A stretch of DNA of 64,000 bases from positions 248,001-312,000 of the forward strand of contig NZ_CP049074.1 of NCBI RefSeq assembly GCF_013343295.1, given 5' to 3'. Below, in pieces: positions 25,046 through 55,167 of this stretch. Numbering within the stretch: the first letter of the stretch is position 1; each line of letters starts with the position of its first letter. The stretch is from Metallosphaera tengchongensis (GTDB taxonomy: Archaea; Thermoproteota; Thermoprotei_A; Sulfolobales; Sulfolobaceae). A program made the translations under genes and the position numbers. Under the pieces are notes generated by a model. That model did not search any database, was not told the DNA's origin, and saw only the letters and a list, made by a program, of their open reading frames with translations.

Positions 25046-25962
25046 TTAGAGGTATCTTTTCAAAACTGACATGGGATTGGTCATGTTAGCTGTCAGTAGA
25101 GCCTCGTCTGGGCTGTGACCGAAGGCAAATGCCAGAAGTTGACTGAAGTAAACCAGAGGCATCCTTAGATCCTGCCCGTACTTTTCAGCGATCTTATTCA
25201 TGTTGGTCTCTATAGCGACGTGGCCAAGTGGACAGTCGGTAATTAGTAACTCTGCACCGTTTCTCTTGGCGTCCTTTAAGATCCTAGCCTCCAGGTGAAG
25301 AGATGTGTTGACGTCGGAGTATACATGTGGACCGCCGCAGCACATAGTCTTGCTTTCAAATGGCACTACTTCGGCCCCTAAAGCCTTCAGCAATTCGTCC
25401 ATGAACACCGGTCTCTCTGGGTCATCTTTCATCTTCATATACCCAGTAAGGGTATATGCCTTAGGCCTAGAGTAAAGGCATCCATAGTACGGAGCTACCT
25501 TGAGCCCAGTTAACGGCCTCTTAACCCTAGCCTTTACTCCTTCTGGTCCTACCGTATTGTACACGAACTCCACTGCATGGATCATTAGCAACTGCATGTC
25601 GTACTGTTTCTCTCCCATTTTCTCCAGATAGGAGTTTACCTTTTCCCTGAGCTTAGGGTATCTAGTCATGAAGTACTGAGTTCTGGAAAGCGAATAGTGA
25701 CAACCTGGACATGCTGACATTACAGCGTTTGCGCCCATCTGCCTGGCTAAGGACAGGTTTCTAGCTGGTAACAGTAACCCGGCCATGGTATTTACGTTCT
25801 TTACCTCTAGCGCACCACAGCAGTTGTAATCCTCTATCTTCTCGTAATTTATACCTAGATCCTTCGCCACTAGCTGAAGAGAGACATCGTAGGACTTACC
25901 CAACCCGTCCAAGGCACAACCCGGGTATAGGGCTACTTTTCCGTAAGGATTGGCTATCTCTG

Positions 25963-25966
<4 letters not shown>
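25046..25966 (-). CDS. hdrB2: sHdr subunit B2 (heterodisulfide reductase-like)
   Basis: A 306-aa protein with two complete CCG cysteine-rich domains (Y-P-G-C...N-C-C-G-A and A-C-P-G-C; later G-C-L-Y...M-C-C-G-G-P-H and D-C-P-L-G), the ligands for the unusual non-cubane 4Fe-4S clusters of HdrB. In the sHdr complex it is part of the cytoplasmic machine oxidising protein-bound sulfane sulfur. It overlaps hdrC2 by four bases and closes the dsrE3A-to-hdrB2 series. Confidence 0.92.
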
Positions 25967-26641
<675 letters not shown>

Positions 26642-26655
<14 letters not shown>

Positions 26656-27361
26656 ATTTTATCACCTTAATATATGGTTTTAGGCCCATTACTAGGGCCG
26701 TTGTGGTGAGGTGTGTAGGGATCAACCCAGCGGCCTTCTTGTCGACCGCCAAATGGGTGGTATAGTCTAAATACCTCACGTATGCGTAAACTAAAAAAAC
26801 GGAAGTTGGATAATAATTTCCTGAGGAAAGCCCAAATATTTCAAGTACCCTCTTAAGTTCATCTACGGAGGAGAGGAACTCAGTCTCGCTCTTTAGATTC
26901 AAGCCCTCCTTAAGGACATAATTAATAGAGCCTGTGTTCTTCTTGTTGTTCCATATCCATCTAGTCCATAACGGAAACTTTTCAGGGTAGAGATAATGCA
27001 TTATTTCCTTGGCCATGTCCTCTATGTCCTCGTCGTTGTAACCTATAGTTGCTAAGAACTTACTTAGCCTCTCATTGTAACTCATTTCTTCATCCTTCAA
27101 GTAACCCAATGCCGAGGAGAACTTGGAGACCCCAGCCTTCTTCAAAACCTCTTCGAAATGTCTCCTTGCGTAGAAAATGGAGTCAAATACCTTCTTCATC
27201 TCCTCCTCCGAGGTGACGTTGACCGACCTAAGGAAGTCGGTCTTCATCTTCATTGCTTCTAAGATTAAGTTAAGGGATTTCCTCGCGTCTCCAGACGCGG
27301 TGTTATTCACATCTACATTTAACATGGCGTTATATATTTCCCTCACGAAATCAACGTTCAA
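26642..27361 (-). CDS. Conserved sHdr-cluster protein of unknown function
   Basis: A 239-aa, mostly helical soluble protein lying exactly between hdrA and hdrC2, the place where bacterial and archaeal shdr clusters keep an unassigned gene (often called orf2 or hyp). No cysteines or cofactor motif are visible; [14 protein letters not shown] is a distinctive aromatic patch near residue 130. The constant position implies a structural or assembly role. TTG 27361 is the likely start. Confidence 0.8.
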
Positions 27362-27371
27362 AAAAACTGTA

Positions 27372-28469
27372 CTAATGATGGGCCACCTCGACCCGCTTCT
27401 TAGCGAAGTCCGACTCGTCCCATATGCCCTTGGTTACATATTCGTAAGCCTTCATCGCAGCAGCGTATCCCTCGGTAATGGAGTCAGATATGGTCTTGGG
27501 ACCTGTTATTGCGCCTGCAAGGAATATTCCCTTCTTGGTTGACTGTACAGGTAACCTATCCGGGTCTATTGGCTTAACGAAGCCATGTTCCTCAAACTCA
27601 AGCCCTAAGGCTTTAGCCACTTGTTTTGATCCCAAGCCTAGCTCCATTCCGTTGGCCAATATGACCATATCGTATGGGACCACTAGAGCCCTATTCAGGT
27701 TCATGGTGTCCTCACCCTTTATAATCACTGTGTCATTGGGACCTCTCATAAACTCGGAGATTCTGCCCCTGATATATCCTACTCTGTACTCAAGCTGAGA
27801 CTTCCAGTAAAGCTTGTCCTCCATTAGACCATAAGTCCTTATGTCCATGTAATATATGTGGACTACCGCATCTGGGACCCTTTCCTTTATTTCCATTGCC
27901 TGTTTGGTCGAAACTGCACAGCATACCCTTGAACAGTAGGTGTTCCCAACTGTTGCGTCTCTAGATCCTACACATAAGAGAATCGCAACTCTCTTGGGAG
28001 GAACGCCCTTAGTGGTAACCAGCTTGTTCTCAGAGAGCATCCTCTCTATGTCAGAGATCTGGTAAATATTTGGAATAATACCGTAACCGTACTCGTATTT
28101 TCTCCTTGAGTCAAAGTGTTCGAAACCTGACGCAGCAATTATTGCGTTAACTTTCTCATTAGTTATTTTACCGGACTTATCTTTAATGGAGACGGTAAAC
28201 CCTTTTCCCTCATCCTTAATTCCCTCGACTATGCTCTCCATGTAGGTCTTAACGCCTCCAGACTCCACTCCCTTTATCAGGGGGTCTAGAACTTCGGAGG
28301 CTGGCCTCAGCTCAGGGAAGAGCAAGCTGTACTTTAGTTTCTTTGGGGTACCACCAAGATAGGACTCTCTCTCCACTAAAACTACGTCAATACCCATGTT
28401 CCTTAATTCCTTTGTAGCTGAAAGGCCTGCTGGGCCTGATCCTATTACAAGGACTTTTTCTCCTGCCAA
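27372..28469 (-). CDS. hdrA: sHdr subunit A (FAD protein)
   Basis: A 365-aa HdrA-like flavoprotein of the short sHdr type: Rossmann G-S-G-P-A-G (10-15), Y-L-G-G-T-P, and I-I-A-A-S-G-F, with the cysteine group C-S-R-V-C-C near residue 185 and a C-terminal G-I-F-L-A-G-A FAD motif. It lacks the N-terminal extension and ferredoxin inserts of methanogen HdrA. In the sHdr complex it is the flavin centre, likely passing electrons to NAD or another acceptor. TTG start at 28469. Confidence 0.92.
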   Translation of the reverse strand: MAGEKVLVIGSGPAGLSATKELRNMGIDVVLVERESYLGGTPKKLKYSLLFPELRPASEVLDPLIKGVESGGVKTYMESIVEGIKDEGKGFTVSIKDKSGKITNEKVNAIIAASGFEHFDSRRKYEYGYGIIPNIYQISDIERMLSENKLVTTKGVPPKRVAILLCVGSRDATVGNTYCSRVCCAVSTKQAMEIKERVPDAVVHIYYMDIRTYGLMEDKLYWKSQLEYRVGYIRGRISEFMRGPNDTVIIKGEDTMNLNRALVVPYDMVILANGMELGLGSKQVAKALGLEFEEHGFVKPIDPDRLPVQSTKKGIFLAGAITGPKTISDSITEGYAAAMKAYEYVTKGIWDESDFAKKRVEVAHH

Positions 28470-28513
28470 TCTCCCACTCTCATATCATTTTTAATAAAAA
28501 TAATTAAAAAGGT

Positions 28514-29857
28514 TTACTTAGAAGTATTTGTCGTTTGTCCCTTCTCTTGCTTATACCACTTAACCCTTTCTGGCACAGATAGGTAGAAGTCTATTTTCCT
28601 GTGAGGCTTGTACAGGTACTCTGGTTCAGCCTTTCCTTCCCTCAAGTCTGCCAAGTACTGTATGAACTTCTCCTTATAGTCGTCTACATTCACTCCTATC
28701 TTCCTCATGAAGCCTTCAACATCCGTTGCGTGCCAGTGAACTTGAGCTATGGTGTAGGGATCTGCGCCCATAGCTATTGCTGCGAACTGAGCATCTGCTA
28801 GCACTGGTAGGTTATAGTTGAAGCCGTGGGCTTTACCTGCCCATTGGCTCTTGTCCAATGTAGTGACACACCCTGTATCAGAGGTCACGAATATGTCAGC
28901 CTTTCCTTCCTCAACTGCTGGTATCACCTTTTTGAACAACGCAAAGCTCCTAGAGAACTCCCTCTCAGTTAAGATGTGCCTGAAACCGAAGCCGCAGCAG
29001 TCCCACCAGGTGGAGTAGTCCACTAGCTTAGCGCCGAAGTTCTGCGCTGTCCCGCTAGGAGCAGCAGGTCTTCTCCCTTCGAAGACCTCAGGATCATAAA
29101 TCGTGTCCTCAGGAACCAACTTATAAACGTGGCAAGGCGTGTGTACTGCGGCCCTTATCCCGTTTAAGTTATACTTCTTCTGTTGGGCTGCCTTCTTACT
29201 CATGGTGTACAACCACTCAGAATAGTGAACGACTTCCTCAGGTATCACTATGTCCATATCCATTTTCCTCATGATGGGTCTTAACTTATCCCTTATCTCT
29301 TTGTGCAGAACTAGCATGTTCCTTATTTCCTTGTAATGACCGAAAGAGGTTCCGCAGTGAATTAAGGGGAAGTAATCTATCTCGTATGCCCTCCACATGT
29401 TCCTGACGTATACCCCAGCTAAGGCAACTGGGTTAGACGCACCAGAGGCATGATAGTTCCACCCTGTACAAGAGGTCTGGTGTGGCTCGTCCATATAGTC
29501 TATTTCCATTTTATTCATCATCCAGAACACTGAAGTTGGATAACCTGGAATGTGTCCACACTGGCCACAGCTCTTGTGCTGCCATAACTTAGTTGTGGGA
29601 ATAACCTTAGGAGTTCCGTTTAAGGTCTGCATCTTTATTGGATTGTTGTATGGCTTAATGTGATGAATTATTATCTCTCCTTTGTCCTCTAACTTGTATA
29701 ACTCCTCTTTCACGTGTTGTAGACCGTGCGGGGTGCTGTACCTGTAGATAATCCTCTGGTAAACCTCGTTCCAGTCCATGTTGTCTGCCATGGGGAAAGC
29801 TTCCTTCAATTCCTGTTCCATCTTCTTATCCACTTCTTGTGTACTCAAACCAAACAC
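28514..29857 (-). CDS. hdrB1: sHdr subunit B1
   Basis: A 447-aa HdrB-like subunit with an N-terminal extension of about 90 residues and cysteines at K-S-C-G-Q-C-G-H, T-S-C-T-G-W, H-T-P-C-H, D-C-C-G-F-G-F-R-H and D-T-G-C-V-T. The single CCG-type motif differs from HdrB2 and is characteristic of the longer HdrB1. The start is GTG 29857, or TTG 29848 if the AAGGTG there is used as the ribosome site. A 128-base gap to hdrC1 hints at an extra promoter. Confidence 0.9.
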   Translation of the reverse strand: MFGLSTQEVDKKMEQELKEAFPMADNMDWNEVYQRIIYRYSTPHGLQHVKEELYKLEDKGEIIIHHIKPYNNPIKMQTLNGTPKVIPTTKLWQHKSCGQCGHIPGYPTSVFWMMNKMEIDYMDEPHQTSCTGWNYHASGASNPVALAGVYVRNMWRAYEIDYFPLIHCGTSFGHYKEIRNMLVLHKEIRDKLRPIMRKMDMDIVIPEEVVHYSEWLYTMSKKAAQQKKYNLNGIRAAVHTPCHVYKLVPEDTIYDPEVFEGRRPAAPSGTAQNFGAKLVDYSTWWDCCGFGFRHILTEREFSRSFALFKKVIPAVEEGKADIFVTSDTGCVTTLDKSQWAGKAHGFNYNLPVLADAQFAAIAMGADPYTIAQVHWHATDVEGFMRKIGVNVDDYKEKFIQYLADLREGKAEPEYLYKPHRKIDFYLSVPERVKWYKQEKGQTTNTSK

Positions 29858-29985
29858 CTTCTAACATTATAATATTGAGGAGGGTTAAATACTTTACTTA
29901 TTAAACATTTTATGTAACAATGAAATTTTTCCCAAAACTTTAACAACTTTAAAGAAAAAGACGATAATAAAAAGAGTTTATAAAA

Positions 29986-30828
29986 TTACAGATCCAACCA
30001 GCTATCCGGTAGCTCGTTCTCGTCTAGCTCTCCCTTCTCCCACTTCTCCCTGATTTCCTCCAACTGGGATTTTCTGTCCTCATATATGTCCATTATCATA
30101 TCGTAAAGATCCTTGTCCACTCCCTTAAGCGATTCCATGACACCAGATTCTATCATTATTGTCATCATCTCGACAGCGGTCTGAAGGGATGGGTGCCATC
30201 CAATATCTGTCCTCTGCATCAAGTCCACTGGAATGGCCTTTCTATATACGTCCATGTTCTTAGACTCCTCCACCGCCTGAGGTCCCCAGTCTGGGAATGA
30301 ATCTGGTTGTATCATATCAGGGGTAACCTGATTGCCCATCGTTAGGACAGTGTATAGAACCCTCCTGTAGGGCGCTAGGATCTCCTTAGCTGACGGTAGG
30401 GCAAACTGAACCGAGTACTCCCTGAGTAACATTATTAGGCCAGCAATCTCGTTGTTGAATGGACACCTCATGGAGCAGGTGTAACACTGAACACATGCCC
30501 ACACTTTCTTGTTGGTGAATTCCCATATCTTGTCAACCTCATCCCTCATCATGTACTGTATCATTTCCCTTGGACCGAAATCGTAGAACTTAGCTGCAGG
30601 GCATCCGGATGTGCATACGCCACAGTTCAAGCATCCTCTTAGGTATTCGTCATATCTGAAGTCGGACTTCACAGCCTGCCAGAACTTCAGAGCTAACTCC
30701 CTGTCCGACGGTGATAAAGTGGAGAGAAGGTTCCTTTCCTCCTCTGGCATTGCACCTTGAACGTCGAACGCCATGTCTAGAAACCTTGGGTCGTCCGGTA
30801 ATTGGAGTATACTCTTAGCTTGTGCCAT
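29986..30828 (-). CDS. hdrC1: sHdr subunit C1 (ferredoxin-like)
   Basis: About 280 aa with two 4Fe-4S motifs, C-L-N-C-G-V-C-T-S-G-C-P and C-V-Q-C-Y-T-C-S-M-R-C-P, in a helical frame; the C-terminus is strongly acidic. It pairs with HdrB1. ATG 30828 is preferred (M-A-Q-A-K-S-I); TTG 30840 is an alternative. A TATA-like ttataag (30861-30867) suggests this gene starts its own transcript, separate from tusA-dsrE3A. Confidence 0.9.
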   Translation of the reverse strand: MAQAKSILQLPDDPRFLDMAFDVQGAMPEEERNLLSTLSPSDRELALKFWQAVKSDFRYDEYLRGCLNCGVCTSGCPAAKFYDFGPREMIQYMMRDEVDKIWEFTNKKVWACVQCYTCSMRCPFNNEIAGLIMLLREYSVQFALPSAKEILAPYRRVLYTVLTMGNQVTPDMIQPDSFPDWGPQAVEESKNMDVYRKAIPVDLMQRTDIGWHPSLQTAVEMMTIMIESGVMESLKGVDKDLYDMIMDIYEDRKSQLEEIREKWEKGELDENELPDSWLDL

Positions 30829-30898
30829 ACTATTCCACAAGTATAATGATAAAAGGAGACTTATAAGTTTTGTTAAAAAAAATCTAAAATAAAATAAG

Positions 30899-31141
30899 TT
30901 ACTTCGCTCTCTTCACTAGAATTCTAGTTACGCCGCCCTGTTGCTGAATATCTAAAATTTGATGCCCAGTCCTTCTAGCCCAAGCTTCAATATCAGGCTT
31001 GGCAGCGGGGTCAGTAGCCAACACTTCCAGAACTTCTCCAACGTTAATTTGCTTTATAGCCTTCGCCGTCTCCATCACAGGTCCCGGGCAATACATACCC
31101 TTTACGTCAAGGGTCTTGGTTATTTTGGCCTCTTGTGACAT
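30899..31141 (-). CDS. tusA: TusA sulfur carrier
   Basis: An 80-aa TusA with the C-P-G-P sulfur-carrying motif (Cys18). It relays sulfane sulfur as a persulfide between DsrE3A and the sHdr system. A longer frame begins at 31213, but ATG 31141 follows GGTGA by five bases and gives the standard length. It starts 10 bases after the dsrE3A stop. Confidence 0.93.
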   Translation of the reverse strand: MSQEAKITKTLDVKGMYCPGPVMETAKAIKQINVGEVLEVLATDPAAKPDIEAWARRTGHQILDIQQQGGVTRILVKRAK

Positions 31142-31151
31142 ATTGGTCACC

Positions 31152-31568
31152 TTAAATGAATAGGGTTGTTCCACCCTCAGCCCTGTCCAAGAAAGTGGCG
31201 ACGCCCACGACATCGTCCACGAAGTCCGCTAAGTTCTCTTTCTTGAGACCGAAGAACTCCATGGTAGTGGAGCAAGCGTAGACCTTCACTTCTCCCACCT
31301 CTTTAGCTTCCTTCACCATTTGGTGCCACATGGGGAATTTCATATCCATCATCTTTTTTATCATCATCGGACCCATCTGCTCGTAATTCTTGTCTATCTG
31401 TGGAGGAGCCTGCATACCTTGCTTGCTTATAGCGTTCAGCCCCCAGAACGTAAAGAAGAGGTTAACCTCGTAACCCGATGCCGCAGCGCCTGAAGCTAAA
31501 ATTCCTACAGGCATTAGCTTATCTATTGTTCCCGAGAACACAATTATGGATAACTTTTTTCCTGCCAA
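31152..31568 (-). CDS. dsrE3A: DsrE3A-type sulfurtransferase
   Basis: A 138-aa DsrE-fold protein with the active Cys99 in Y-A-C-S-T-T-M-E-F-F-G. In archaeal and bacterial sulfur oxidisers it exchanges thiosulfonate or persulfide sulfur with TusA. TTG 31568 is four to five bases after GGTGA; a TATA-like gcttaaatattt lies near 31593-31604. First gene of the sulfur-oxidation series; upstream lies a dead tnpB element. Confidence 0.9.
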   Translation of the reverse strand: MAGKKLSIIVFSGTIDKLMPVGILASGAAASGYEVNLFFTFWGLNAISKQGMQAPPQIDKNYEQMGPMMIKKMMDMKFPMWHQMVKEAKEVGEVKVYACSTTMEFFGLKKENLADFVDDVVGVATFLDRAEGGTTLFI

Positions 31569-31865: not shown

Positions 31866-33168
31866 GACGTTACGAGAAAGGAAGGAGGTTTTTCCATACG
31901 TTTACGGTTCTCTTTACCTCCAGTTTCATTATGTTTAAAGCACCATTAACGTCACTGTGAAGCTTGTCGCCTAAAGGACCGCTGACGACTCCCCTAGGTC
32001 TTCTGACAACTTCAACGTCGTGAAAAGCACAGAGTAGAGGTGTTGTACTCGACAACCAGAAATGCCTTTATACCATACTCGTAAAGCCTGGACACGACGG
32101 CGTCAATTAACTTACGATATGACCATATGTTCACACTTAACTTGTCACCCTTATCTTGAGAGATGAAGTAGGGGTAACTTAAGTAAACAGTTGAAACTCA
32201 TAATTGTTATAACGTCTTAGCGAGATTAGAGGACAAGGTTCTATAGTAGTAAAGGAGCCTGCGGTAAAGTTTCTTAAAGAGTAGCTCCCTTTCCCTTAAC
32301 ACTGACTCCCTTGCCTCAAACTCTTGTATCTTCACAGCCTCGCTCTTTAGTCTGTCTAGTTCTGCGACCTTTTTCTGAAAGTAGAAGTAGTCCGCCTTTA
32401 CGGTTGAACCACGGTAGAACAGAACGGTACCGTCGTCTACGGTAACAGTTGCTAACATGTTGATGCCTAAGTCAATTGAAGCTACCTTCTCGGCTTTAGG
32501 TGACGCTATCTGTATCTTGTCCCTCTCACCGTGGACGATGAGGGGTTCCTTTATTGGTCTTTTGCTCTTCTTTGCTGTAACCCTACCTACGTCGACAGAA
32601 ATGTAAGCGTAGGACTTGTCGTCTATGTGTATCTCTAGCCTACCTTAAGTACCAGACCACCTTAACCTACCGGTGAAGGGTATTTCCATCTTCCAGTCCT
32701 TGAGGATGAACATGTGTCTCTCCTCATCAACCTCGTAGCGGTCTTGCCTAACTACTAGGATTAACTCCCTCTTCCCGTCCTCTTTCCAATATCCCGGTGG
32801 TGGGGTATGACGAACAAATTGCGGTCTATCTTTATTCTTCAGTAATGAGAAAAAGGAATGCCACGCTTCATTGTTCTTCTACAATACAGCATGTGCATTA
32901 ACAGAATCCAATACCTCCTTGTACTTCTCGTAATACTTATCCCAAGTACCTTTTAGATCTACTCCCTTCTGTTGGAAGAACTGTTGCCTCCTCTCGCAGT
33001 TTACCTCGTTGTATAACCCCGCTGAAGCGTCTGCTAACTTCCTAAGTTTTTCTGTTGTGCTCCATTAGGGAGCAATCTGACAGTTACGATCCTGATACTC
33101 TCCTCCGGTATTGCTGGATAGATCGGCTCCCGCTCCTCATAGAGAAGTTGACCGGAAGGGAGTACCAT
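31866..33168 (-). pseudogene. tnpB: Nearly full-length dead tnpB (IS605 type)
   Basis: Conceptual translation from ATG 33168 gives a TnpB: R-I-V-T-V-R-L-L-P-N-G, a frameshift near 33070, then K-L-R-K-L-A-D-A-S-A-G-L-Y-N-E-V, the RuvC-I strand I-D-L-G-I-N near 32470, the coiled region 32207-32458, and the C-terminal S-D-V-N-G-A-L-N-I-M-K. In-frame stops occur near 32881, 32646 and 32205, and the zinc-finger cysteines are eroded. Clearly inactive. It splits the sulfur-oxidation island. A left-end hairpin lies at 33201. Confidence 0.9.
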
Positions 33169-36375: not shown

Positions 36376-38628
<2,253 letters not shown>

Positions 38629-39413
38629 CAATTTCGTCTCCCTCCTTCGCATCAGTTTTCATAAACAGCCTTACCATAGGCTCTCCCTTAAATGATAGAA
38701 CGCTTTCCAGGAGAGGGGGTCCGTCAATCGGTTCGTTCCTCATAACTTTGAACGCAGGTCCGTAATCCCAGTTCTTGAGAAGACCTCTTCTGCTTTCAAT
38801 GAGGGTAACGCTCTTCTTTACCTTAGTGAAGTATCTTTTACCAAGTAAATTTATATTTCCTTTAACCTCTACCCCTATCAGTCCACCGTATCCCGCGTAG
38901 GGTAAACTGGCATTTAATATTCCTCCACAACACCCTAAACCTCTGATATCCCCAGCTTCTGTATATCTAGTAAGCTTTACGTCAAAGAATGACTCTGTCC
39001 TATTCACAACCACACCTGCTCCACTTTCCTGGTACCGAGTGACCTTAGGAAAGGATAAGGGCAGACCCTCCACGTGGGCATGCTTGAAATCACCACCAGT
39101 GTAAGGAGAGGAAATTAACCTTCCTAGCACGTCTCCCCTCTTTACTTGCTCACCGGGAGACAGGTAAGGCTCAACGTGAAGTATTTTGATGTACCTATTC
39201 TTGCTCTTCAGAATAACTTTATAATCGTAGTTTACAGTCGCAAAGACGTTTGGTCTCCCAACGTTGAACTTCTCCACAGATAAAATCTCACCAGACAAAA
39301 AGGATACAAATTCCTCAGAGCTAGGATAACCTACGTCTATAGCCTTTGCTTTAACATGAGATGAGAAGCCACTAGTGAAAAAACTTACTAACGTACCTGG
39401 CTCGAAGTTCATC

Positions 39414-40481
39414 CTACTTCAGGAACCTCTTGGCCAGAGGTAGTCTAGATGCCTTCAGGGCACTTACGGTTTGTTTTTCTGACGGATACCACGGAATATT
39501 CCTAAGCCTATCTCCCGGTCTCTCGTTCGAGTAAGGCCTATTGCAACCGGGGCAACCGCTGGTCAGGAAAGCTCCAGAGAGTTCATTTACCGTCAAGTCT
39601 CTCTGCAAGTTGATATCCAAGAGTTCCCCACTCTCATTGAAGACAAAGTCCTCCGCCCTCACCAGATCGTTCTCTATTAACCACCTAGACAACTGCATCC
39701 TTCTGTAGACGTGCACTGGAACAGGTTTTTTGTTCTCCATGGGAGTGGTCTCCTCTGGGTAAAAGGCGAAGAGACTGATCTTCGCCCCTCTGGAGTGGGC
39801 GTACAACATTAGATTGACTGCCTCCTGTTCGGTCTCTCCGAGACCTATTATTAGATGAATTCCAGCATTTTTCTTTCCGAACACTTCTACGGCCTCATCA
39901 ATAGCCTCTACATACCTATCCCATCTGTGCATACTTCTGACTGGTTTTCCCCTCACTGAGTCAAAGACCTCCTTACTGGCTGCGTCTATGGCCACATCTA
40001 TCATATTAGCCCCAGCCTCCTTCATCTTTCTCATATCGTCCTTTTTGGTATAAGTTGCAGTAACTAGCTCAGATATCTGAAGCTCGATTCCCTTCTCCCT
40101 TATTCTCCTTGTTATTTCTATAGCGTCCGGTGATGCCCTGGGATGAGCTAACTGACCTACGCATATCCTCTGTAGCCCATAGTCAGGATCTCCCTGCCTC
40201 TCCTTTATTCTTTCCAGAACCGTATCTAGAGGCCTCAATGGCCATTCTACTCTTATCAGAGTCTTACATTCGGGTCCTTGACTTACCTCCCTGGCTTGAC
40301 CACAGTATATACAGTTTGCCTTGCACCCATCAGGATAGTATTGGAGAAGGTTAATCGTAGTATTTAATGCTCCCTTGAGAAATTTTCCAGGAGAAAAACC
40401 TAGTACCATATCAGCCCCGAAACTGAGCCTGACCCAGTCAGGGCTACTTAGTGGTTTTGGATCATTTAGTCTTATAGTCAT
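39414..40481 (-). CDS. lipS2: Radical-SAM lipoyl synthase component (LipS2-like)
   Basis: A 355-aa radical-SAM enzyme of the biotin-synthase-related type: cluster motif Cys53-x3-Cys57-x2-Cys60, G-L-G-E-T-E-Q-E-A for SAM, and a late C-P-G-C pair that may bind an auxiliary cluster. In archaea and sHdr bacteria, paired LipS1/LipS2 enzymes insert the two sulfurs into octanoyl-protein to make lipoate. Overlap of four bases with its partner and nearness to the ligase gene support this. Which of the pair is LipS1 and which LipS2 is less certain than the joint function. Confidence 0.78.
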   Translation of the reverse strand: MTIRLNDPKPLSSPDWVRLSFGADMVLGFSPGKFLKGALNTTINLLQYYPDGCKANCIYCGQAREVSQGPECKTLIRVEWPLRPLDTVLERIKERQGDPDYGLQRICVGQLAHPRASPDAIEITRRIREKGIELQISELVTATYTKKDDMRKMKEAGANMIDVAIDAASKEVFDSVRGKPVRSMHRWDRYVEAIDEAVEVFGKKNAGIHLIIGLGETEQEAVNLMLYAHSRGAKISLFAFYPEETTPMENKKPVPVHVYRRMQLSRWLIENDLVRAEDFVFNESGELLDINLQRDLTVNELSGAFLTSGCPGCNRPYSNERPGDRLRNIPWYPSEKQTVSALKASRLPLAKRFLK

Positions 40482-41377
40482 ACGGACACCCGTAACAGAA
40501 AGTCATGGATTACGTTACCGCAACAGGCGTGGCTTAACACCACGTCTCTCCTCCCCTTAGCATACTCTATGGTTTCCTGGGAGGGGAAAGCCATCCCATC
40601 CACACCCTGATCCACCGCAAGCTTCTCCACAGCTAGGTAAGATCTACCTCTTGGTCTAGCGCATCCCAACATGACAGGCACGGAGAAGAGCTCCCTGGCT
40701 GTCATCAAGACTTTACCAAGTTCCTCCGGGGAGGGCTCTTTCCAGGACTTATATGCTGTACCGACCAGAGGCATTAGACCAACTATTATTACAGCATCTG
40801 GACTTACCTCCCTTAAGAGGTTCAAAGCGTGAATATCCCCCTCAACGCCCCTCTTACTTAAACCAACAATCACATGGGGTGCTACCTTTATACCCTCTTG
40901 TTTAAGGAACCTAAAGGAGTTAAGGTAATCCTCAACGGTAAACGGTTGACCTAGAACCTCCCTAATGGTCTCTTCATCACCGACCATATCCAGCAGACCT
41001 ATTTTTACACCACTATCCTTAAACCTCTTAGCTATTTCCCTACTCTTTACAACCCCAGTGTGGGCTATCACAGTTAGATTCTGATATCTCTTTAATACCT
41101 CAGTGTACTTCCAAACAGGGACCTCTCCTCTAGGCGTAGATCCACCGGAGAGGATGATCCCTTTCTGACCTGATTTACTAGCTCTTTCTAGGATCCTTTC
41201 AAATTTTTCCTTCGTGGACCCGTCCTCCATCCCCTCCAAAACCCTCGTCTCACAATGTTTACAATTGAAGGCACAAGAAGTCCCGGTGACCGATACCGCT
41301 TTCCAACCCTCATCGGAGCTAATGAAATCTGTTTCGTACTTTTTAAGGGATGGGGCGTAGAAGTAAATAGGTTTCAT
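40478..41377 (-). CDS. lipS1: Radical-SAM lipoyl synthase component (LipS1-like)
   Basis: A 299-aa radical-SAM protein of the COG1856-like group with cluster motif Cys35-x3-Cys39-x2-Cys42, L-S-G-G-S-T for SAM, and further cysteines (L-G-C-A-R-P-R-G-R-S-Y; H-A-C-C-G-N at the C-terminus) suitable for an auxiliary cluster that donates sulfur. Works with the adjacent LipS2-like enzyme on octanoylated LbpA. It overlaps the ligase by four bases upstream and LipS2 by four downstream. Confidence 0.78.
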   Translation of the reverse strand: MKPIYFYAPSLKKYETDFISSDEGWKAVSVTGTSCAFNCKHCETRVLEGMEDGSTKEKFERILERASKSGQKGIILSGGSTPRGEVPVWKYTEVLKRYQNLTVIAHTGVVKSREIAKRFKDSGVKIGLLDMVGDEETIREVLGQPFTVEDYLNSFRFLKQEGIKVAPHVIVGLSKRGVEGDIHALNLLREVSPDAVIIVGLMPLVGTAYKSWKEPSPEELGKVLMTARELFSVPVMLGCARPRGRSYLAVEKLAVDQGVDGMAFPSQETIEYAKGRRDVVLSHACCGNVIHDFLLRVSV

Positions 41378-42411
41378 TTGACTAACCCCTCCATAAATTG
41401 TATGAAGTTTTCCTTGTCAACTCCCACAATCTTAACGCTATTAAACCAGTCCGTTACCTCCCTTCTGAGATCCTCTACTCTACTCCATTTTAGCCTAGCC
41501 TCGAGGTCATAGATGCTCCTCCTTGGTTCCACAAAGAAGTCTCCAGTTATCAGCACAGACTCTATGAGCCCCTTTCCTGCCATCTTAACTTGCACTCTAA
41601 AAAGCCCACCGGGTAGCTTAATTTCCCCCTCTCTCACGTTATCTCCCTCTAGGGGCTTCCTAAGACCGAATATCCACTCCCTGGAACTGTATTTAAGCTC
41701 TAGTTCCTTTATGTAATTTAGCTCTCTCTCACTGTATGCCCCTTCCTTCAGATTTACCTTCAGGGACTCCTGGAATCCCTTTTTGGAAACCTCAATGACT
41801 TCCTCCATACTGACAGGTTGTTGGAGCTCCCTGTTAAGCCAGGTTATCCTTTCCCTGAAATCCTTAGATACTTTGTCCTTCATTTTCTCCGTGCTCAGTT
41901 TCAGGGTTTCCACCATGTCGTCCACATTGAAATCTACTAAAATTGTTCCAGTAACTGACATGTACTTCCCGACTGAGAACGCACCTATACCAGAGATCTT
42001 CTTTCCGTTAATCTCAACATCGTTCTTGGGTCTAAAGTTCGACTTTATACCAAGCCTAGAAAGAGCGTCTATAACTCCTTCCGCTGAACTCCTTATTGCG
42101 GACTCCACTGATCCCCCTAGCAAGGAGGACTCGGCGTAAATTTCCCACCCCAGTTGCCATGGGCCCATTATAATTGTCCCACCACCTGTGGGTCTTCGTC
42201 CAACGTCCCAGCCCTTCTCCTTTACCCTTTCCAAGTTTATCTCTTGTTCAGCCAGTTGATGATACCCCAAAAGCACGGCCGTGGGTTCAAAAATAACAAA
42301 TCTCAGAAGAGGAGATGAACCTTCAGCAACGGACTCCAATAGAGCCTCCTCCCCAGCTAAGATGCGATGCTGAGGACCTCGCTCCACGAGAAACCTAAAT
42401 TCCGGCATCAT
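41374..42411 (-). CDS. lplA: Lipoate-protein ligase, sLpl(AB) type
   Basis: A 345-aa ligase attaching octanoate or lipoate to the lysine of lipoyl domains. It has the LplA catalytic fold with R-R-P-T-G-G-G (about 72-78), K-N-D-V-E-I-N-G-K-K-I-S-G (about 128-140), and a C-terminal accessory domain (L-P-G-G-L-F-R-V-Q-V) often split off as LplB. This full-length form is the sulfur-oxidation-linked type. First gene of the lipoate operon; a strong TATA-like tatatataaag lies about 30 bases upstream (near 42431-42441). Confidence 0.87.
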   Translation of the reverse strand: MMPEFRFLVERGPQHRILAGEEALLESVAEGSSPLLRFVIFEPTAVLLGYHQLAEQEINLERVKEKGWDVGRRPTGGGTIIMGPWQLGWEIYAESSLLGGSVESAIRSSAEGVIDALSRLGIKSNFRPKNDVEINGKKISGIGAFSVGKYMSVTGTILVDFNVDDMVETLKLSTEKMKDKVSKDFRERITWLNRELQQPVSMEEVIEVSKKGFQESLKVNLKEGAYSERELNYIKELELKYSSREWIFGLRKPLEGDNVREGEIKLPGGLFRVQVKMAGKGLIESVLITGDFFVEPRRSIYDLEARLKWSRVEDLRREVTDWFNSVKIVGVDKENFIQFMEGLVK

Positions 42412-43742: not shown

Positions 43743-44078
43743 ATGATGGAAGTCTTTGATACTCTTAAGGACAAAAAGGAGAGCATTAGATGTTGCTACA
43801 AGATGAGCGATACGGATGTAGAGTGCCTCTTTAAGCTAATTGAGATTGGTGAACCCAAAACGTCAGTTGAGCTTGGAAATATGATGAACCTAAGTAAAAC
43901 CACGGTGGAAAATAGCATGAAGAAGCTAATTGAACTGGGATTAGTTATGAGGATAAAAGTGGATGGAAAAAAGATTGGAAGACCTAAGTTCCTGTACGTT
44001 GTCTCGGAAGACTTTAGGGATAGAGTGAAGTCTGACTTGAAGAGATGTGCGGAAAAGATACTATCAGCATCCTCCTAG
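43743..44078 (+). CDS. Winged-helix regulator with conserved Cys pair (paralogue 1)
   Basis: A 111-aa MarR/TrmB-like winged-helix protein: recognition region [19 protein letters not shown] and wing G-R-P-K-F-L-Y. Cys18 in C-Y-K-M-S-D-T-D and Cys102 in C-A-E-K match Cys25 and Cys110 of the paralogue at 44528, with nearly equal spacing. It may sense redox state or sulfane sulfur; that is inference. A TATA-like gtttttaac lies about 28 bases before the ATG (leaderless). It converges with the TusA-like gene. Confidence 0.78.
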
Positions 44079-44321
44079 TTCTTGGATTTTCTTTTCGTCC
44101 GCAGAGGAAGATTTCTCAAGAACAATGGTGAAAGTGCCATTGTTTGACGTGTGTTCTAGAACCTTGCAATCCATTAGTTTCACAGCTTCCATTATCATAT
44201 CATCACACTTAGGATCTCTAAATGTAACTTTCAGTTTACCTTGCTTCATTTTCATTAGTCTGGCAGCAACTTTCATAAAAGGTTCGGGGCATTCTAAATC
44301 TACAAGATTTAATTCTTCCAT
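44064..44321 (-). CDS. TusA-like sulfur carrier (second copy)
   Basis: An 85-aa TusA/SirA-fold protein with C11-P-E-P in place of CPGP, plus Cys39, Cys52 and a C-terminal Gly-Gly-Cys85. Extra cysteines distinguish it from the TusA at 30899 and suggest a regulatory or relay role. Its stop overlaps the end of the regulator at 43743, and it is divergent from the YHS-type gene at 44377 with a shared 55-base promoter. Confidence 0.83.
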
Positions 44322-44376
44322 AAAAGGATAGACTTACAAAAAGCTAAAAAAGGTTTTTTGGAATTATCAGCCTGTC

Positions 44377-44550
44377 ATGAAAGTAGTATGTCCTGTATGC
44401 AACAGACTATTTGAGGCAGAGTGTACACCATACCTTCAAAAATATGAAGAAACTGTATATTACTTTGATACAGAAATATGCCAGCTAACTTTTATGAGAG
44501 AGCCTGAAAGATTTAGATTTAAGTGTTCTAAGGCTTCTGGAAGCTCTTGA
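44377..44550 (+). CDS. YHS/TRASH-type small metal-binding protein (57 aa)
   Basis: ATG 44377 opens a 57-codon frame with V-C-P-V-C-N-R near the N-terminus, then [12 protein letters not shown] and M-R-E-P-E-R-F, which is the YHS/TRASH layout (C-x2-C, aromatic-F-x-S/T-x3-C, F-x-x-x-P-E-x-F). Such domains bind metals, often copper, or act as metallochaperones. Its end overlaps the convergent regulator gene by 23 bases. The conserved spacing makes a chance frame unlikely. Confidence 0.75.
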
Positions 44551-44914
44551 GCTCATTGGGAGTTAAGCCACCGAATAGTTTTGCGCAGTATTCGAAGTCT
44601 TTGGAAATCTTGTCCGTTAAGAACTCAGCATCAACTGCCTTATATATGTACCTTGGTCTTCCGCCTTTTGAGCCTTGATCCTTGAACCTCTCAACAAAGC
44701 CTATGGATATTAGCTTGTTAACCGATCTGTTGACCGACGCCTTGCTTAGCTTCAGTACTGCCGCTAGGTCATCCTCGGTCTTAGGTCCCAGGTTTATTAG
44801 AGCCTTAAGTATCTGAAAATCTGTGTCTGAGACGTCGTAGCAGAAAGTTAGAGCTTCTACTAGCCCTACTTCTCTTCCAGAAGGAAGTCTTGCTTTTAAT
44901 TTTTGTACTTCCAT
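44528..44914 (-). CDS. Winged-helix regulator with conserved Cys pair (paralogue 2)
   Basis: A 128-aa winged-helix protein ([18 protein letters not shown]; wing G-G-R-P-R-Y-I-Y) homologous to the regulator at 43743. It shares C25-Y-D-V-S-D-T-D and C110-A-K with it. The gene follows TATA-like tttatatata (about 44949-44958) and a perfect palindrome at 44922-44934, so autoregulation is likely. Confidence 0.8.
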
Positions 44915-44921
44915 TCTAACT

Positions 44922-44934
44922 CACATAATATGTG
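44922..44934. promoter_or_regulatory. Palindromic operator candidate CACATA-A-TATGTG
   Basis: A perfect 13-bp palindrome between the TATA box and the start of the winged-helix gene at 44914, covering the expected transcription start. A dimeric winged-helix protein, perhaps this one, would bind it and repress. Confidence 0.55.
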
Positions 44935-45061
44935 GTAAAAACGTATATATAAATCTTTGCTTATTTTAGAAAAAATGTATCTCCTTATAATTGTAAGTAA
45001 AATGGAAACAAGTATTACAAAGCGAGGAAAGCCTCGTACTTTACAGCCTCGAGGGAGTCAA

Positions 45062-45415
45062 TTAACCCCATAGACCTCTTTTCATATCTTCCATCTTGGT
45101 CGCAAGCGAAATTTGAAAGTACCTAAACACTTCAACAGTAAAGCTTACTGCTTCGTTATCAGGCATCTGGGAAATTTTAGATCTCAACTCGTTTATGAAT
45201 CTGGTCATATCGTTAAAGGTTGCCTTACTCATTTCATACTTAGAAAGGTCCAATATTCCCATGATTTCGTCCTTTGACTTAGCTCTCTTGACTGCATCAT
45301 ACATTTGTAATACAACGCCTCTTCCTTTACTACCAAAAAGAGCCTCTTCAGGGTTCCTCAACCATCTGGCGTAAGTTGCGGCTAGCTTTTTTGCTTGGTT
45401 TTCCGAGCTTTCCAT
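45062..45415 (-). CDS. Hypothetical helical protein (117 aa)
   Basis: Not recognised. A soluble, almost all-helical protein (Y-A-R-W-L-R-N-P-E-E-A, A-V-K-R-A-K-S-K-D-E-I, F-I-N-E-L-R-S-K-I) without cysteines. It is divergent from queC with 29 bases between starts, so they share a promoter region with TATA-like elements on both sides. Confidence 0.65.
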   Translation of the reverse strand: MESSENQAKKLAATYARWLRNPEEALFGSKGRGVVLQMYDAVKRAKSKDEIMGILDLSKYEMSKATFNDMTRFINELRSKISQMPDNEAVSFTVEVFRYFQISLATKMEDMKRGLWG

Positions 45416-46583: not shown

Positions 46584-46997
46584 ATGGAAATTAAAGGTTT
46601 CTCCTTTCCGGAGGAATTATTATACGATTCTGAAAAACACGTCTGGGCAAAGGTTGAAGGGCAATACGTTACGTTAGGCATAACTGATCTCGGTCAATAT
46701 ATGACCGGAAAGATATTTCAAGTAACCGCAAAAAATGTGGGAGAAAAGATAGGGCCAAGAACTCCCGTCTTTACCTTAGAAAGCGCAAAATGGGTCGGAA
46801 AATTTAGATTTCCTATTAAGGGGGAGATAGTTGAGGTGAACCAAGAGGCCTTGGACAATCCAGGAAAAGTAAACGAGAAACCTTACGATACTTGGATAGT
46901 CAGGATAAAAGTGGAAGAAATGGAAAGAGAGGCGTTTAAACCATTGGAACAAGTTAGATCTGAGTTTGAAAGGGAGGCCAGTAGAGTTGCTAAGTGA
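46584..46997 (+). CDS. lbpA: Lipoate-binding protein LbpA (GcvH-like)
   Basis: A 137-aa lipoyl-domain protein related to glycine-cleavage H protein. It shares the [12 protein letters not shown] and P-x-x-G-x-I/V patterns, and the lipoyl lysine is Lys69 in L-E-S-A-K-W-V-G, where GcvH has E-S-V-K-A-A. No other glycine-cleavage genes are near; instead the shdr, lipS and lplA genes are, so it is the sulfur-oxidation LbpA that carries sulfur intermediates to sHdr. TATA-like aatttata (46553-46560) stands 27 bases before ATG 46584, giving a leaderless mRNA. Confidence 0.87.

Positions 46998-54045: not shown

Positions 54046-55167
<1,122 letters not shown>

Follow-up and report, generated by a model that had tools for sequence, protein, structure and literature searches.

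R1 and R2, two winged-helix proteins encoded near the sHdr sulfur-oxidation genes of Metallosphaera tengchongensis, are members of Lrs14, an archaeal family already described, in which disulfides between paired cysteines are established or presumed. As disulfide proteins they are of a familiar kind; they are well conserved, and their position is suggestive. We regard it as an even call that they act, on or near the sHdr-lipoyl island, as Lrs14 dimers that bear disulfides and are probably tuned by redox state. Our literature search found no account of how sHdr is controlled in archaeal sulfur oxidisers; R1 and R2, which stay with sHdr in most Sulfolobaceae, are concrete candidates for thiol-bearing regulators of this pathway.

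The window, a stretch of 64,000 nucleotides, is part of a 2.18-Mb Sulfolobaceae genome, with Metallosphaera javensis and M. yellowstonensis among its nearest relatives. It contains the genes for R1 (43743–44078, + strand), a TusA paralogue (44064–44321, − strand), a YHS-like protein (44377–44550, + strand) and R2 (44528–44914, − strand) in this order, with tail-to-tail overlaps of 15 bp between R1 and TusA and of 23 bp between the YHS-like gene and R2. The group is flanked on one side by a lipoyl-assembly operon (39414–42411, − strand) encoding two radical-SAM, LipS-like proteins (Radical_SAM, E 8e-16 and 1e-11) and an LplA-type ligase (LplA-B_cat, E 1e-42), and on the far side by a gene for a GcvH-like lipoate-binding protein (46584–46997, + strand; Pfam GCV_H, E 3e-27), which holds the same place in most relatives; a few other small genes lie between. 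The sHdr cluster (25046–31568, − strand), about 13–19 kb from the group, comprises HdrB1, HdrC1, orf239, HdrA, HdrB2, HdrC2, a single-Cys TusA and DsrE (Pfam CCG, Fer4, Pyr_redox_2, TusA and DsrE).

Family, fold and cysteines of R1 and R2

A first reading of this DNA, made from sequence only, had described two paralogous winged-helix proteins with matched cysteines, and this description holds: R1 (111 aa) and R2 (128 aa) share 41% identity over 94 aa (E 5e-23), R1 containing C18-Y-K-M-S-D-T-D and C102-A-E, 84 residues apart, and R2 containing C25-Y-D-V-S-D-T-D and C110-A-K, 85 residues apart. The corresponding codons are at 43791–43796 (Cys17-Cys18) and 44046–44048 (Cys102) on the + strand for R1, and at 44840–44842 (Cys25) and 44585–44587 (Cys110) on the − strand for R2. 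That reading had noted neither the other cysteines of R1, namely Cys17, which is vicinal to Cys18 and gives R1 two N-terminal cysteines, and Cys28 (43824–43826), nor the two tail-to-tail overlaps, nor the family. The latter is clear from the Lrs14 model NF040939 (cut-off 90 bits), exceeded by both R1 (120 bits, E 3e-35) and R2 (129 bits, E 5e-38); the Sta1 model NF053606 (cut-off 80 bits) is exceeded by R2 (130 bits, E 2e-38), with R1 slightly under (75.6 bits). Scores with HTH_5 (cut-off 22 bits) were marginal for R1 and R2 (20.0 and 23.1 bits) and far below those of the Lrs14 models, and assignment to the ArsR/SmtB family was rejected. Recent tandem duplication as the origin of the pair was also rejected, R1 and R2 falling on separate, well supported branches of the tree.

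In the AlphaFold models (pLDDT about 91; 90.6 for R2), each protein has a single central winged helix, an N-terminal helix (H0) and a long C-terminal dimer helix (H4). The N-terminal cysteines are placed at the end of H0 and the second cysteine within the long C-terminal helix: Cys17/18 inside helix 12–18 and Cys102 inside helix 91–110 in R1, Cys25 inside helix 18–26 and Cys110 inside helix 96–124 in R2. A Foldseek search with the R2 model gave 3r0a, 6cmv and 2d1h as the closest folds, and the same three are the closest PDB structures by profile (2d1h with R1, E 1e-34). The aligned 2d1h chain (ST1889 of Sulfurisphaera tokodaii) has the same sequence as R1 of genome G030, whose gene lies within the same four-gene module; a text search for ST1889 in the literature gave unrelated papers only. 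We take ST1889 to be, almost certainly, the protein known as Sto12a, partly because no other Lrs14-type chain of S. tokodaii appears among the top profile matches. It is an orthologue of R1, its C15, C16 and C100 matching C17, C18 and C102, whereas in R2 the first cysteine of the vicinal pair is missing.

Disulfides in this group are known from work on relatives. The Sto12a paper (Shinkai 2007, cited in PMC12529230) names intrachain and interchain disulfide bonds in its title, and in the crystals of Sto12a and MM_1094 the cysteines of these helices make inter- and intrasubunit disulfides (PMC9426492). In OxsR of Haloferax volcanii, C24, which corresponds to C17 of MM_1094, forms an intersubunit disulfide, and the substitution C24A abolishes DNA binding (PMC9426492). 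The MM_1094 cysteine aligns with the first cysteine of R1 (Cys17), so that the OxsR C24 position would be occupied by a cysteine in R1 and by Phe in R2; this R1-specific vicinal cysteine is, by alignment, a new detail. OxsR (TrmB family, arCOG02242) resembles R1 and R2 in its single winged helix and in having a cysteine in the N-terminal helix, but differs in coming from a halophile, in responding to hypochlorite and in having one cysteine only. A crystallised disulfide protein without a known role (ST1889/Sto12a) is now placed beside a pathway that runs through persulfides.

Conservation and age of the cysteine pair

The cysteines do not vary among orthologues, an outcome that would have counted against the first reading: R1 Cys17, Cys18 and Cys102 are kept in 31 of 31 Sulfolobaceae orthologues, and R2 Cys25 and Cys110 in 30 of 30. 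An alignment of 10 R1 and 10 R2 sequences has only ten invariant columns, two of which are the H0 and H4 cysteines, and the pattern is therefore not due to chance. The pair extends beyond Sulfolobaceae, both cysteines being present in 19 of 20 homologues sampled from other families of the order; no sHdr HdrB2 was detected in the genomes of these sampled homologues, and the surroundings of the homologues yielded no sHdr genes. A Sulfolobaceae paralogue clade without a link to sHdr (L004, L117, L119 and others) also carries both cysteines. Since the pair occurs in homologues without detectable HdrB2 and in the non-sHdr paralogue clade, it is, by these comparisons, ancestral and predates the link with the sulfur pathway. 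The earlier suggestion that the cysteines are tied to sulfur oxidation is not borne out, given about 19 genomes of other families that have the pair without detectable HdrB2, the non-sHdr clade, and the fact that the R1 orthologue is a crystallised member of a family with known disulfides. As the pair is a family trait, present also in genomes without sHdr, nearness to sulfur genes is no proof of sulfur sensing.

Among 112 family members, 89 have both cysteines, 22 have neither and 1 has a single cysteine; in the 22, hydrophobic or small residues replace them. Such joint presence or absence fits two residues in contact, but as statistical evidence the coupling is weak because the joint loss is a single event on the tree: the 22 members form one clade, which includes AbfR1 and AbfR2. 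AbfR1, AbfR2, Lrs14 and Smj12 have the same fold and family as R1 and R2, and the AbfR1/AbfR2 clade differs in lacking both cysteines. The H4 cysteine of AbfR1 was considered as an equivalent of R2 Cys110 and rejected, as it lies one alignment column apart.

Neighbouring genes and the R2 promoter

The TusA paralogue (85 aa) scores 56.7 bits with Pfam TusA (PF01206; cut-off 28.6 bits; E 2e-15), and the extra cysteines ascribed to it beforehand are indeed present. In addition to the family's CPxP cysteine (C11, in CPEP at residues 11–14), it has C39, C52 and C85, the last being its final residue (LGGC), whereas the sHdr-cluster TusA, also in the window, possesses no cysteine other than that of CPGP. 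All four are kept in every orthologue extracted from the linked loci and in S. acidocaldarius; a weaker match in G001 (43%) has three and lacks the terminal one. The overlap with R1 (44064–44078) encodes S-A-S-S-stop of R1 on the + strand and G-G-C-stop of TusA, hence the conserved terminal cysteine, on the − strand. This antisense overlap, a new detail, measures 15 or 18 bp in 21 of 21 genomes in which the two genes are adjacent (window included). Nor does the overlap account for the terminal cysteine, since the four cysteines are also kept where R1 is not adjacent (G018, G019, G022 and G023).

The second small protein (57 aa) had been called YHS-type. It resembles Pfam YHS (PF04945; 20.7 bits, E 4e-4) but stays below the gathering score of 30.3 bits, and we refer to it as YHS-like. 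Its five cysteines (CPVC, AEC, EIC and a C-terminal KC) are kept in the orthologues extracted. Close matches (E 1e-6) were found in 30 of 31 Sulfolobaceae genomes and in 0 of 172 other genomes of the class. Wherever the YHS-like gene and R2 are neighbours they are tail to tail, ranging from a 32-bp overlap to a 76-bp gap. Sequence searches gave no solved structural relatives for this protein or for the module TusA.

In most Sulfolobaceae the group adjoins the sHdr-lipoyl genes. Of 31 genomes, 23 have R2 and 21 have R1 no more than 17 kb from HdrB2. The complete order R1-TusA-YHS-R2 occurs in five genera, that of the window included. In two genera (g7 and g11), a further R2-type gene lies at the HdrB1 end of sHdr (L112, 9444–9830; L123, 8635–9012), so that R2-type genes flank sHdr on both sides. 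Elsewhere the genes are separated: in G005, R1 and R2 adjoin tail to tail but have neither TusA nor YHS beside them; only YHS stays with R2 in G004 and G021; and in S. acidocaldarius, G001 and G005, YHS and R2 are not linked. In G005, which is metagenome-derived, one stop codon each was counted inside the HdrB2 (C9) and YHS (C1) matches, which may reflect assembly error or decay. In S. acidocaldarius (G022), YHS remains in the island and R1 and R2 are elsewhere, far from sHdr; this genome was recognised by its gene at 1041 kb, the product of which is the 6cmv protein. Around four sHdr clusters that are more distant within the class, none of R1, R2, TusA and YHS was found. The four-gene unit is a tendency and not a fixed module, and its description as self-contained has to be given up, with TusA, YHS, R1 and R2 occurring apart in several genomes.

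Gene rank order in S. acidocaldarius identifies the orthologues of R1 and R2 as Saci_1242 and Saci_0133, the locus tags being taken from published listings and from what is known of the family. Transcripts of both have been reported to rise on nutrient depletion, and Saci_1242 has been reported as a biofilm activator (PMC10127717), suggesting that the role of these orthologues is wider than sulfur. A search for expression data on the presumed M. sedula locus tags found no paper.

The R2 promoter is conserved. Between the window and G009, the region upstream of R2 is 95% identical, compared with 53–78% for ten other island genes, one of whose upstream regions (PDO) is coding sequence. Two candidate operators were recognised. 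The perfect palindrome CACATAATATGTG (44922–44934), between the TATA box and the R2 start codon, is the sole perfect copy in the 2.18-Mb genome and is kept in most Metallosphaera relatives. The near-palindrome TTT(T/G)CT-N6-AGCAAA (44956–44973, − strand), just upstream of the R2 BRE/TATA, has one match in the window against 0.09 expected, and is kept as TTTGCTAAAATAAGCAAA or near it in relatives, including other genera, which also share the BRE/TATA. This conserved promoter with its once-in-genome palindrome is a new detail, and by comparison of sequences it fits specific, perhaps autogenous, control of R2. Neither palindrome was found at the sHdr promoters in searches of the window and genome, and a common R2/sHdr regulon using a shared operator was not supported. 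Because the R2 palindrome is nowhere near the sHdr promoters, direct control of sHdr by R2 is likewise not supported.

Possible roles of the cysteine pairs

As redox-tuned proteins, R1 and R2 would be homodimeric, Lrs14-type (arCOG02242-like) DNA-binding proteins, each carrying a cysteine where H0 ends and another within H4; homodimeric DNA binding is known for Lrs14-family relatives (PMC12529230). By analogy with Sto12a, MM_1094 and OxsR, we infer the intrachain pairs Cys18–Cys102 in R1 and Cys25–Cys110 in R2, which would probably act as a reversible clamp between H0 and H4, and an interchain pair Cys17–Cys17' in R1, by which the second H0 cysteine, at the OxsR Cys24 position, could link both subunits. 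Oxidation would lock the dimer and alter its grip on DNA. R2, and probably R1 too, may work locally on the sHdr-lipoyl island, either as repressors under their own control or as architectural proteins; redox control in M. tengchongensis and the target genes are what we infer from the relatives and the neighbourhood. The four-Cys TusA and the YHS-like protein would be sulfur-island neighbours with roles as sulfur or metal carriers, not obligate parts of one sensor. Counted against this reading are the distance of R1 and R2 from sHdr in S. acidocaldarius, the biofilm role of Saci_1242, and the possibility that Lrs14 proteins are general nucleoid proteins (PMC12529230); the disulfides of R1 and R2 could also be purely structural.

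It is possible, though on the doubtful side, that the disulfides are structural only: R1 and R2 would be abundant nucleoid-type proteins with constitutive bonds for heat stability and no sensing, and their nearness to sHdr would be synteny without function. AbfR1 of M. sedula offers a precedent, being a nucleoid protein that binds without sequence specificity and whose dimer is stabilised by a disulfide (PMC12529230), and the pair in genomes without sHdr agrees with it, as do the unlinked R1 and R2 of S. acidocaldarius and the effect of the R1 orthologue on biofilm. However, an entire paralogue clade, likewise from thermophiles, manages without the pair, DNA binding depends on a cysteine in the distant relative OxsR, and the promoter element, conserved and peculiar to R2, points to specific regulation. 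The redox-tuned reading has also to be set against sulfane-sulfur sensing, which the first reading had suggested, as in the bacterial, ArsR-family regulators SoxR, sHdrR and SqrR, which control sulfur oxidation through two bridging cysteines and for which the response to sulfane sulfur is demonstrated. Persulfide from TusA would pass to the H0 and H4 cysteines, and the sulfur-bridged form would release the sHdr-lipoyl promoters. The conserved linkage of R1 and R2 both to sHdr and to a TusA that carries additional cysteines, the R2-type gene at each end of sHdr in two genera, and the analogous cysteine pair of sHdrR relatives (50 and 116 in sHdrR), which makes an intraprotomer tetrasulfide (PMC12423496), speak for such a sensor. 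We nevertheless think it improbable, as R1 and R2 belong to a different family, the pair predates sHdr and persists without it, TusA is not adjacent to R1 or R2 in several genomes, sHdr shows no shared operator, and R1, R2 and YHS are not near the four more distant sHdr clusters. That R1 and R2 might be the archaeal counterpart of sHdrR, an ancestral clamp that would read sulfane sulfur from a dedicated TusA, itself equipped with an additional cysteine at its end, and switch the sHdr-lipoyl island, is a long shot.

YHS/TRASH-like proteins often bind metal, and the YHS-like gene lies against R2, with an overlap or a short gap, in all cases of adjacency, from which one could imagine R1 and R2 as metalloregulators binding copper, zinc or iron, with the YHS-like protein as metallochaperone. 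This appears very unlikely: the conserved thiols of R1 and R2 are confined to a single one in H4 and one (R2) or two (R1) in H0, and the alignment of 10 + 10 sequences shows no other conserved Cys or His site common to both, and YHS is unlinked from R2 in the three genomes named above.

Several other genes of the window may be mentioned. A 117-aa protein (45062–45415) with no family match adjoins the R2 or YHS gene in most relatives, including S. acidocaldarius, in which R2 is no longer at this place. A histone-deacetylase-family protein (37606–38652; Pfam E 2e-57) is found beside the sHdr-lipoyl genes across genera, and a 417-aa protein with internal repeats and a DUF1641 motif at its end (36385–37638) lies within the sulfur island. 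A short ORF between DsrE genes (31870–32055) resembles the C-terminal end of a TnpB-type protein, and a complete TnpB-like gene is present at 54046–55167.
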